Below are positions 39,056 through 45,561 of a stretch of 64,000 nt of DNA, piece after piece (position 1 is the stretch's first letter; each line of letters begins with the position of its first letter). The notes beneath the pieces are model-generated. The model made no database searches, was not told the origin of the DNA, and saw only the letters and a program-made list of their open reading frames with translations. The position numbers and the translations under genes were made by a program. The DNA is taken from assembly GCF_020541225.1 (NCBI RefSeq), contig NZ_CP045889.1:992001-1056000 (forward strand), read 5' to 3'. This DNA comes from Candidatus Steffania adelgidicola (lineage in GTDB: Bacteria > Pseudomonadota > Gammaproteobacteria > Enterobacterales > Enterobacteriaceae).

Positions 39056-39352
39056 ATTATTAAGGTGAAGGCTGCAATCAATTACGCAGCAGAAAAAATA
39101 AAATTAGCTTGTTATCATAAAAATATTGCTAATCAGTCCATGATTCACTATATATTTTATCCTGTATAGATTTAAATTCTCTAGAGAAAAGCGGTACTAA
39201 TAATAGCATTATGATACTTAGAAACATGCTAAGTACAGCACTTTGACATGTAAACACGCCAAAGTAAAAAATATTTCTCCATGTGCCAGAGACCATCGAA
39301 CATACGGAGTAAAATGCCACAACCAATTCACCACGCACTAAAAGGAACGCCA

Positions 39353-39979
39353 ATGCTTTGGTCTTTTATGGCAGTAGTTTTCTCGGGATGGCTATATGTG
39401 GACGCTTCTTACCGGGGGCCGGTCTGGCAGAAATGGCTATTTCAACCCATAACTTTGCTATTGCTACCAACTCTAGCCTGGGAAGCACCGAACCTCACTG
39501 CAAGTGGGTATCTGATTATCCTCGGCTTACTTTCCACACTCATTGGAAACACGATTTTGATGGTGTCCAGTAAACGAACACTGCACGCTATAAGCGCGTT
39601 TTTTTTCTCTCATCTTCTGTATACCATTGCTTTTGCTAAGCATATTACGCTATCAGCGTACTGGCCACTTCCGCTCGCGCTTCTTATCGTCGGCATCGCC
39701 ATAAGTATGATGCTTTGGCCTCGACTTCAGAAATCACGCTGGCCTATTGTCACCTATATTGGTATTACACTGTTGATGATATGGGTCGCAGGCGAAGAAT
39801 ATATCCGCCTCGGTGATGACTACAGTATCTCACTGCTTCTGGGTACCATGTTGCTGGGAACAGCCGCGGGGGTATGGTTGATTAACCATTATCGCTATCC
39901 ATTTAATGCTGCCCGGGGGATAACTGCCGCGTGCTACTTCGCCGGACATTTTCTTATAGTGCGCTCGCTCTATCTGTAA
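39353..39979 (+). CDS. yhhN: YhhN/TMEM86 family inner-membrane protein
   Basis: Multi-pass inner-membrane protein of the YhhN/TMEM86 family, whose eukaryotic members include lysoplasmalogenase; the bacterial role is not established. The protein is 208 residues from MLWSFMAVV, the same length as E. coli YhhN. AGGA eight bases upstream supports this start over the ATG at 39281. Around seven or eight hydrophobic segments are visible. Conserved stretches include VDASYRGPVWQKW, FFFSHLLYTIAFAKH, WPLPLALLIVG and the C-terminal AACYFAGHFLIVRSLYL. It converges on tusA with a shared terminator between them; zntA, which lies here in E. coli, is cleanly gone. Retention of this obscure protein in so reduced a genome is interesting. 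Confidence 0.93.
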   Translation: MLWSFMAVVFSGWLYVDASYRGPVWQKWLFQPITLLLLPTLAWEAPNLTASGYLIILGLLSTLIGNTILMVSSKRTLHAISAFFFSHLLYTIAFAKHITLSAYWPLPLALLIVGIAISMMLWPRLQKSRWPIVTYIGITLLMIWVAGEEYIRLGDDYSISLLLGTMLLGTAAGVWLINHYRYPFNAARGITAACYFAGHFLIVRSLYL

Positions 39980-39994
39980 TCCCCTATTGCGAAG

Positions 39995-40031
39995 GGAGTA
40001 AAGACGTCAAGACATCGTCGTTACTCCTTTT
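39995..40031 (+). terminator. yhhN terminator inside the 3' end of tusA
   Basis: The stem is GGAGTAA (39995-40001) / TTACTCC (40021-40027), extended by GACG (40003-40006) / CGTC (40016-40019). The loop is 9 bases and TTTT follows. The downstream arm lies within the last codons of tusA on the opposite strand, so the yhhN transcript ends antisense to tusA. Confidence 0.75.
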
Positions 40032-40264
40032 CGTAATAAATAGCGATAAGGTGGGTGGGCTGTAATCTGTAGTAGTAGAGTATGTTCCATGAACCTGCAA
40101 AAAGCCGGAATATCACGAGTGGTTGCCGGATCATCGGTGATGATCAGTAATGTCTGGCCATCCACCATCTTTCGTACAGCTTGACGTATCCTCACGATAG
40201 TATCCGGACAGCGCAATCCACTTACATCTAAGGTTTGATCTGCAGCGGTAAGAATATCAAACAT
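40007..40264 (-). CDS. tusA: sulfur-carrier protein TusA
   Basis: Persulfide carrier that passes sulfur from IscS toward the TusBCD-TusE-MnmA relay for 2-thiouridine in tRNA. The protein is 85 residues from [10 protein letters not shown] (E. coli 81). The ATG at 40315 is rejected because its extra 17 residues are not in the family. AGGA upstream fits the chosen start. Active Cys19 is in [11 protein letters not shown], and [23 protein letters not shown] and PYRYLLRKG follow. Convergent with yhhN. The rest of the relay is not in the window. Confidence 0.95.
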
Positions 40265-40315
40265 GCCGAATTTCCTGTTACTTTTTATGCGAAAACATAA
40301 TTCATTATTAAGCAT

Positions 40316-41490
40316 GTAGATTCAAAATATCCATAAATCCTTCACGGCGTACCATGATATTTTATGAAGGCATACTGGTTAAAGACGCTGTTAATTATAG
40401 AGTAGATTAGTAGAATCTCAATGTTTTACTAAAATCCATCTGGCTCTTTCAGATGTTTTAATAAACAAATGTAATACCTGATCACCACCTGCCTTTCAGA
40501 TAGGTCATAGGTTGAAATAATGATAATCGAATTTATATTTCGGTTGATGAATTACGGGTAGACATCCTAAAAAATTTTATCTATTTCTTATCATGATCTT
40601 TTGTAGTTTTAACAAATATAAATAGGAAGTTGCTGCCTGAGCTTAAACAAAAAACTCTAATATATTCACTACAATTGATTTTTAAAGGAAAATAAAAAAC
40701 TCAATATAACAGTGAACAATCTTTATCTAGATAAAGATTGTTCACTGTCACTTTTTTAGAAAAAATTACTAGCAGATGGATTAGCAAAGTAATTTTAAAT
40801 ACTGTACAATCACTTGGAGTTAAATACTCCTATAAAATCCATGATTCATTCTAAATCTAGCAACATTTACCTAAAGTAAATCTAAGATTATTCCTTACCT
40901 AAAATGATTGATTTTAGAATGTATCGTTACCTGGCTACAACACGCCTCTTGCATGACGTTAATGTCTTTAAGACATATCGTTCGCATTAATTTTTTACCA
41001 TGAATCAACCTAAGCAAGGAGAGTTAATATAACCACTCAGATTTTAAAAATCAAAAAAAACTATTTATATAGTAACAGATACTCTTGTTATGTCTTTAAT
41101 CTGTTTTTTCCTCCTGTCCTCTTCCTACCCCTCTTAGCTATCTAAATTGATTAAAAATCATAATTTTTATTATGCACGTATTCAAACCAATAGAAAAGAT
41201 GCAATTAGTAATTACTATGTAAGTCAATCCTTTAAAATCACAACTTAGAAAAATCCCCTGTTACTTTTCCACGCAGTTAAGTACTCAATAAATTTCAACA
41301 AAACCCTCCGCATATCACGGTATAAATAGCATCTCTAGACTCCAACATAATATCATTCTCAATAAAGTTCCAGAAAATAATTTGGGTGGAATTATTTTTT
41401 AAATTCACTTAACATAGGAATTTAAGAGTATCATGCCAATATTCCCCTTTATTCAATCCAAAAAATTACAGTAATTTCTCCACCAATCTA
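40316..41490. other. gene desert after tusA
   Basis: AT-rich, holding the 40-bp palindrome at 40709-40748 and no supportable gene. yhhQ and dcrB (E. coli neighbours) are not recognisable. Confidence 0.5.
40709..40755 (+). terminator. perfect 40-bp palindrome followed by a T-run
   Basis: Left arm ACAGTGAACAATCTTTATCT (40709-40728) and right arm (40729-40748) are exact reverse complements, 20 bp each, with no spacer. CACTTTTTT follows on the plus side; the minus side also runs into T-rich sequence. As RNA it folds into a long hairpin with T-run, typical of an intrinsic terminator, possibly bidirectional. No gene ends nearby on the plus strand; tusA starts 445 bases away on the other strand, pointing left. 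Confidence 0.75.
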
Positions 41491-41493
41491 GAG

Positions 41494-41590
41494 CACCTCC
41501 CTTTAAGTTCTCTCTCAGGCATAGCACCCCTCTTCGCCAGAACCATTACCCCACCTTAGATCTCTACTGCTCAGGAGCGAGAGGGAGGTG
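41494..41590. repeat. GC-rich inverted repeat, 9-bp arms
   Basis: CACCTCCCT (41494-41502) and AGGGAGGTG (41582-41590) are perfect arms around a 79-base GC-richer segment. The right arm looks like a Shine-Dalgarno site for the ATG at 41591. It could be a structured leader in which the ribosome-binding site pairs with an upstream arm, but the downstream frame is broken. Confidence 0.5.
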
Positions 41591-41878
41591 ATGGACATCG
41601 GCACTATTCGGCGAGAAAGAAATCTTTCAAATCTAAAATTTTACGATCTACATAGGAACATTGGCTTACCCAACTCGTAAAACTCGATTTTAGGGATTGC
41701 GTTCGCTAATATTAGTGGCCACCATCCTGCACCAGCTCCATTTAAGACTAGAGTATCTTGGACTATAAGAATTACCATCACTTATGATCCAGGAAACTAT
41801 TGGAATAAAATTCCATCTCAACGTGCTATAGACGCACATACCACGATAACCCTACGTCGTAATGAAGACACACGCTAA
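41525..41878 (+). pseudogene. unidentified decayed coding frame
   Basis: A plus-strand frame of 117 codons contains only one internal stop (TAA at 41678-41680), in DNA where chance frames are much shorter. Local GC content is visibly higher than around it. Readable pieces are EREVMDIGTIRRERNLSNLK, FYDLHRNIGLPNS, ILGIAFANISGHHPAPAPFK and YDPGNYWNKIPSQRAIDAHT. An ATG at 41591 directly follows GGGAGGTG. I do not recognise the family. The composition looks like a former protein gene rather than random DNA. Confidence 0.4.
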
Positions 41879-44610
<2,732 letters not shown>

Positions 44611-45561
44611 CTATAGCCAATTTTTTCGTTTAAAATACAAATACGGCGCTAGCCCAGCTAAGATCATTAATATGATCGCACTGGGATACCCAAAAGGCCA
44701 TTTAAGCTCCGGCATGAACTCGAAGTTCATGCCGTAACTTGATGCCACCAGTGTTGGTGGCAAAAAAACCACAGACACCACTGAGAAGATCTTGATAATA
44801 CGATTCTGTTCAATATTAATAAATCCCATTGCCGCCTGCATCAGGAAGTTTACTTTCTGAAATAGAGATTCATTATGGGGGAGTAGCGATTCGATATCAC
44901 GTAGAATCTCTCTTGCCTGCTCTAGCTGTCCTGCCGGAAGGCGAGCTTTTCGCACAAGAAAATTCAAGGCTCGCTGGCTATCCATCAGACACAGCCTTAC
45001 CTTCCAGCCTACATCCTCCAGCGCAGCAAGCGTAGAAAGGGCATTGTCATACTCATCGCCTTGGTGCCCCTCCATAATAACCAAACTTAACGCCTCCAGA
45101 TCACTATAGATATTCTCAATAGCATCTGCTAACTGCTCGATTTTTGTCTCGAATAAATCCAGCAGCAATTCATAAGCATTAGCATCAATGAGCGTCTGAC
45201 TTCGAGTACGCATTCGGTACAGGCGAAATGCTGGTAGTTCTCGCTCACGCAAGGTATAAAGTCGACCATCACGGATGGTAAATGCTACGGTAGCATTACC
45301 AACATGGTCTTCCGCATCAGCGTAAAAAAAGAAGGAATGTATATGGAGCCCATCCTCATCTTCAAAAAATCGGGCCGATGCCTCAATATCCTCCAACTCA
45401 AGACGTGTCGCCAAGCTCTGCCCTAGCTCGTGATGCACCCGCTCACGTTCATCATCAGCAGGATCAATTAAATCCACCCATACTGCTTCAGGTAAAGTTC
45501 CCAGCTCATCGATGTCAAGACGCGATAACTGATGGTTTTCTAGTTGAAATGCCTTAAGCAT
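44611..45561 (-). CDS. corA: magnesium/cobalt transporter CorA
   Basis: Homopentameric inner-membrane Mg2+ channel. The protein is 316 residues, identical in length to E. coli. The large acidic cytoplasmic domain (residues 1-250) is intact. Two C-terminal membrane helices follow, the first ending in the diagnostic selectivity motif [11 protein letters not shown] (about residues 277-287), and the short tail YFKRKNWL is conserved. It lies downstream of uvrD as in E. coli (yigE missing), with a hairpin-rich 400-base spacer between. GC content and codon use look less eroded than those of the neighbours, suggesting strong purifying selection. Confidence 0.97.

Follow-up and report, generated by a model that had tools for sequence, protein, structure and literature searches.

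Symmetry as complete as that of the 40-bp palindrome considered here, which stands in DNA devoid of genes, raises the question of whether it has been kept by selection or instead reflects the way in which this DNA mutates. The palindrome was identified in a window of 64,000 nucleotides, the whole stretch of DNA analysed, which belongs to a genome comprised of a single contig of 1,369,541 bases. All coordinates without a locus label refer to this window (Table 1).

The palindrome and its gene desert

The segment at 40709-40748 is a perfect 40-bp palindrome. Its arms, described as exact and unspaced in a sequence-only reading of this DNA, are indeed complementary at 20 of 20 positions with 0 nt between them, and the palindrome exceeds in length every other perfect inverted repeat (loop of 0-8) of the 64-kb window. 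Beyond the arms the symmetry ends abruptly, with 10 of the next 40 positions pairing compared to about 11 expected, and gapped symmetry in the flanks stays at background (a score of 18, equally high in 167 of 200 shuffles), which speaks against a remnant of a decayed longer inverted repeat. A chance origin is likewise excluded: the number of 20-bp perfect inverted repeats (loop of 0-8) expected from the base composition of the desert is 3e-7 in the desert and 1e-4 genome-wide. The palindrome thus has the form of a quasipalindrome-correction product, namely a closely spaced and perfect inverted repeat beyond chance. The whole-genome search that the earlier reading had proposed returned the sequence a single time.

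Table 1. Features at and around the palindrome (window coordinates)
Feature	Position	Strand	Basis or remark
Left arm, 20 bp	40709..40728	.	Arm comparison
Right arm, 20 bp, without spacer	40729..40748	.	Arm comparison
Six-T run	40752..40757	+	Three bases past the right arm
Gene desert around the palindrome	40316..44610	.	ORF list: no closed ORF >65 aa
TusA sulfurtransferase ORF	40007..40315	-	Pfam PF01206; start faces the palindrome
YhhN-family ORF	39281..39979	+	Pfam PF07947; nearest + strand gene end on the left
CorA ORF	44611..45561	-	Pfam PF01544; right desert border

The trinucleotide CAC (40749-40751) directly follows the right arm. A T-run had been noted after the arms, and six T are present following this CAC, but the run extends to 40757, two bases farther than had been described. 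The surrounding DNA had been taken as 1.2 kb without genes and with no gene ending at the palindrome; no gene ends there, but the desert is considerably longer, at about 4.3 kb (40316-44610), and the next ORF of 100 aa to the right of the palindrome is that of CorA, which lies on the minus strand and ends at 44611. The TusA and CorA ORFs adjoin across the desert (40007-45561). In E. coli, tusA and corA are located far from each other, so the desert between them may hold a rearrangement junction.

Searches for related DNA at the site returned little. The segment 40600-44500 is without a match in E. coli genomes, and no alignment was obtained at the palindrome among 59 relatives, 20 of which matched elsewhere (at tusA, and at one AT-rich stretch of relative G058). 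The match to G058, 29 bp of AT-rich sequence at 40679-40707 just left of the palindrome, looks like a product of chance. A tblastn comparison with the ORFs of 31 named tusA loci (L023-L053) found nothing within 40250-44600, and the tusA regions of the named relatives contain nothing that aligns at the palindrome. Because no relative aligns at 40709-40748, we infer the history of the palindrome itself.

Perfect inverted repeats across the genome

A sample of 464 kb, composed of 20 stretches of 20 kb (L103-L122) together with the window, has a G+C content of 37% and includes 242 kb outside ORFs of 100 aa, a composition and a large non-coding share that appear to resemble those of a symbiont undergoing reduction. 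The sample contains 41 perfect inverted repeats with arms of at least 12 bp and a loop of 0-8, compared to 0.6 in a global Markov control (mean of 5) and 0.8 in one that follows local composition (mean of 10). Arms of at least 16 bp are found in 14, compared to 0 in the control, and three repeats have longer arms than the palindrome at 40709 (28, 23 and 21 bp). The excess is limited to close spacing, with inverted 12-mers numbering 41 vs 0.3 at 0-8 bp and 11 vs 2 at 9-20 bp, and lying at about background when farther apart. The 41 repeats have no common motif, as the matches that blastn finds among them involve 5 repeats, span no more than 11-14 nt and are for the most part AT-rich.

The same sample also contains imperfect repeats. 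With 0, 1, 2 and 3 mismatches, repeats with an arm of 16 number 14, 11, 26 and 72 (0, 0, 3 and 18 in one control run) and those with an arm of 18 number 10, 4, 13 and 23 (0, 0, 0 and 3 in the control). A steady birth of perfect repeats followed by neutral decay would predict similar counts in the first mismatch classes, which is an argument and not a fitted model; taken together with the counts, it indicates that perfection alone does not require maintenance.

Individual repeats and their surroundings vary. The 18-bp-arm hairpin at L107:2261-2300, located about 230 bp upstream of ffh, has arms of 72% G+C, and the rest of the class is AT-rich. A perfect repeat with 23-bp arms (L115:15689-15735) lies some 1 kb past rpmG, roughly at the place where the end of E. 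coli mutM would fall, and tblastn gave no match to mutM. Part of the palindrome at L121:13521-13565 shares a 23-nt match (96%) with the distant segment L110:12471-12493. A blastn comparison with E. coli matched the neighbouring genes around the repeats of L115, L122 and L107, gave a short match at tRNA-Thr around that of L121, and gave no match around that of L109. The 464-kb sample shows an excess of direct 12-mer repeats at 0-8 bp as well, though a weaker one (14 vs 0.3), which may point to slippage.

Two of the 41 repeats lie within 60 bp of the 3' end of an ORF, compared to 4% of random non-coding positions, and 28 lie more than 400 bp from an ORF end or face none, compared to 78% of random positions. 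T-runs accompany 14 of the 41, compared to 30% of random non-coding positions; a stricter overlap rule leaves 1 of 41 near an ORF end and a random T-run rate of 29%. Since ORF ends and T-runs occur at the background rate, a role in termination is rejected for the class, although single members such as L110:2130-2158 look, from their sequence, like real terminators.

The position of repeats is different in a contrast set of 75 named loci, mostly from free-living relatives, which amounts to 885 kb of one syntenic region (the tusA neighbourhood) and whose loci are thus not independent. There, an ORF end is found no more than 60 bp from 35 of 40 repeats, and T-runs accompany 10 of the 40, compared to 15% of random positions. 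The set leaves out three symbiont loci (L028, L044 and L091) and two outside the range used (L023 and L024), each of which contains 0 repeats with arms of at least 12 bp in its 8.7-12.3 kb. The density per non-coding base is higher in the relatives (40 in 130 kb vs 41 in 242 kb here), and arms of at least 16 bp are found in 2 of 40 repeats there vs 14 of 41 here. What distinguishes this genome from the named relatives is repeat position and arm length, not a higher density.

The palindrome in the carA leader

The longest perfect inverted repeat of the sample, with 28-bp arms at L122:6901-6957 (G000:C1:1346901-1346957), is located 28 bp before the start of carA, which was placed at L122:6986 with the aid of E. 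coli CarA. All 28 of its 28 pairs are formed, with no mismatch and no gap. A search over 60 genomes, including the one studied here, matched 51 of the 59 relatives, some only by short, chance-like stretches; loci were returned from 29 relatives and 15 were aligned, two of which (L175 and L176) are nearly identical. The leader is imperfect in all 15 aligned relatives, with mismatches or gaps in the best inverted alignment. Ten of them align in a common register that has a 2-bp gap and at least one mismatch, and in three of the other five (L177, L181 and L183) the best alignment is a different one. Two stretches of the leader here, of 5 bases and 2 bases, are missing in all 15 relatives.

An imperfect ancestor with changes templated by the other arm is indicated at the carA leader, and its history appears to fit what is expected of quasipalindrome correction by replication template-switching, a process with which van Noort et al. 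2003 is reportedly associated. Presumably, carA leaders carry paired arginine-repressor boxes, and the 28-bp-arm repeat could affect the expression of carAB. The case is a single example, drawn from a leader where selection could act.

Function, mutation and repair

An intrinsic terminator or small-RNA 3' end in use at 40709 would end a rightward transcript from the TusA side, its perfection being selected. As RNA, the palindrome is predicted to form a hairpin with CUAG as its loop and a stem of 18 bp (-23.8 kcal/mol, z -7.1), a stability reached by 0 of 200 shuffles, and this hairpin is followed by a T-run; yet only 5 of the 18 stem pairs are G-C, a gap of three bases separates the stem from the T-run, and T-runs flank 29-30% of random non-coding positions in the genome. 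Terminator-like sites in 39900-44700 exceed those of shuffles (9 vs 2.0), three of the nine being the palindrome itself, and promoter-like sites occur to its left, though not above shuffles (24 vs 24.3). A terminator would stand just after a transcribed gene, and the palindrome does not: the nearest ORF end that points at it, that of YhhN at 39979, is 730 bp away with the convergent TusA ORF in between. The best covariance-model match to Rfam over the palindrome, at 29.4 bits, is far below the gathering score of 83, which speaks against a known structured RNA of Rfam. The terminator or small-RNA end is thus an unlikely explanation.

Selection on symmetry could also act through a dimeric protein, either a repressor or a nucleoid protein, for which the palindrome would be a candidate binding site upstream of tusA. 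The perfect dyad with its sharp stop at 20 bp, placed about 390 bp ahead of the start of the TusA ORF, is of a suitable form, but it exceeds usual operators, which are shorter than 40 bp of perfect symmetry; its one genomic occurrence leaves no regulon of close copies, and in 80 related loci the 1.2 kb upstream of tusA matches the arm at no more than 13 of 20 positions, making such a site quite improbable. The same sharp ends would fit the insertion of a small mobile or repeat element. The genome holds no second copy, however, and the few short and mostly AT-rich matches shared among 5 of the 41 repeats do not describe a family, so that a repeat family or mobile element is disfavoured by single copy and lack of shared sequence alike, and a copy of such an element is very improbable.

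The palindrome is probably one outcome of a general mutational process that works in unselected DNA irrespective of sequence, and not an element that has been kept. During replication, the nascent strand would fold back on a nearby inverted match, copy its own opposite arm and return, and one or a few such events would suffice to make a short or imperfect inverted repeat (a quasipalindrome) perfect. In E. coli, quasipalindrome mutations "universally perfect the palindromic sequence" (PMC6357072), and the same study confirmed a template switch at one hotspot. Much of the non-coding DNA of this reduced, symbiont-like genome is probably free of selection, and with hairpin-processing proteins partly undetected or broken, palindromes would continually form and afterwards be eroded by point mutations. 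We infer that the palindrome at 40709 arose in the manner of the carA leader, that the missing genes raise the rate of such events, and that it has no present function. The sequence-only reading had offered a choice between a recent and a maintained palindrome. A recent origin, by template-switching, is favoured by the many such palindromes in the genome, whereas maintenance as a terminator, small-RNA end, protein site or nucleoid element is unsupported, given that the class ignores ORF ends and T-runs and has no common motif, and that no Rfam match comes near threshold. Findings that weigh against the mutational reading include the lack of an aligned relative at the site, the six-T run that follows the palindrome in one orientation and the non-coding density of repeats in relatives, which is not lower than that found here.

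The state of the repair genes bears on the rate of template-switching. Profile searches of the genome gave no match for SbcD, SbcC or RecA and recovered XseA only as two pieces that contain stops and score below the cut-off; the exonuclease I domain (ExoI) and RecB are intact. SbcD is matched in 43 of the 59 relatives, and over the cut-off in 37. Where relatives lack an SbcD match, the counts of perfect repeats whose arms reach at least 16 bp are 3 in 80 kb (G013), 2 in 111 kb (G029), 2 in 80 kb of the very AT-rich G015 (control 0.1), 4 in 240 kb, one being a simple AT repeat (G008), and 0 in 120 kb (G034); G004, which has SbcD, contains 0 in 80 kb. RecA is kept in G013, G029, G034 and G004 and was not found in G008 and G015. 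A perfect repeat with 28-bp arms is present at L133:15282-15342 of G008, a reduced genome in which SbcD and RecA are undetected. The absence of long arms in G034 without SbcD, and their presence in G013 and G029 despite RecA, count against a part for repair loss. In E. coli, as the excerpted report has it, template-switching is raised in recB and lexA3 strains and not in recA (PMC6357072). Because ExoI and RecB are intact, the relatives give mixed results and template-switching is not raised in the recA strains of that study, any connection of the palindromes with repair loss is only suggestive. It is conceivable, if doubtful, that in decaying symbiont-like genomes without SbcCD and other hairpin-processing functions template-switching becomes a dominant local mutational force, which continually makes and perfects palindromes and, with no selection involved, turns regulatory leaders like the carAB one into long hairpins.

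A striking symmetry tends to be taken as a sign of function, but the genome-wide control indicates that long perfect palindromes, some with T-runs, are to be expected in the non-coding DNA of this genome. Hairpins in such deserts should therefore not be annotated as terminators or small-RNA ends on form alone. The class could also offer a naturally formed record of mutation by template-switching in genomes that miss hairpin-processing genes.

Among known systems, the intrinsic (Rho-independent) terminator shares with the palindrome a stable hairpin followed by a T-run, but differs in that here no gene end is near, the stem is poor in G-C and the T-run is three bases off. In the open-licence literature, no paper on template-switch palindromes in symbionts was found. 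Bacteria with a higher frequency of inverted repeats are more often endosymbiotic (28/200; PMC10434271), in a survey that, in its excerpted text, counts inverted repeats generally and does not deal with the origin of long perfect ones or with these as such. The mitochondrial genes of Nematomorpha also hold many perfect inverted repeats within a single reduced genome; as far as the excerpt describes them, these are located within protein-coding genes and reach 284 bp (PMC6649704), whereas those found here have arms of 12-28 bp and sit almost all outside ORFs. Quasipalindrome correction in E. coli, as excerpted from work on the thyA hotspot and lacZ QP reporters (PMC6357072), differs in that the process is deduced here by comparing a single genome with its relatives, without an observed rate or event; the likeness lies in close inverted repeats that are perfected whatever their sequence, as with the carA leader, which is perfect in this genome and imperfect in the relatives.
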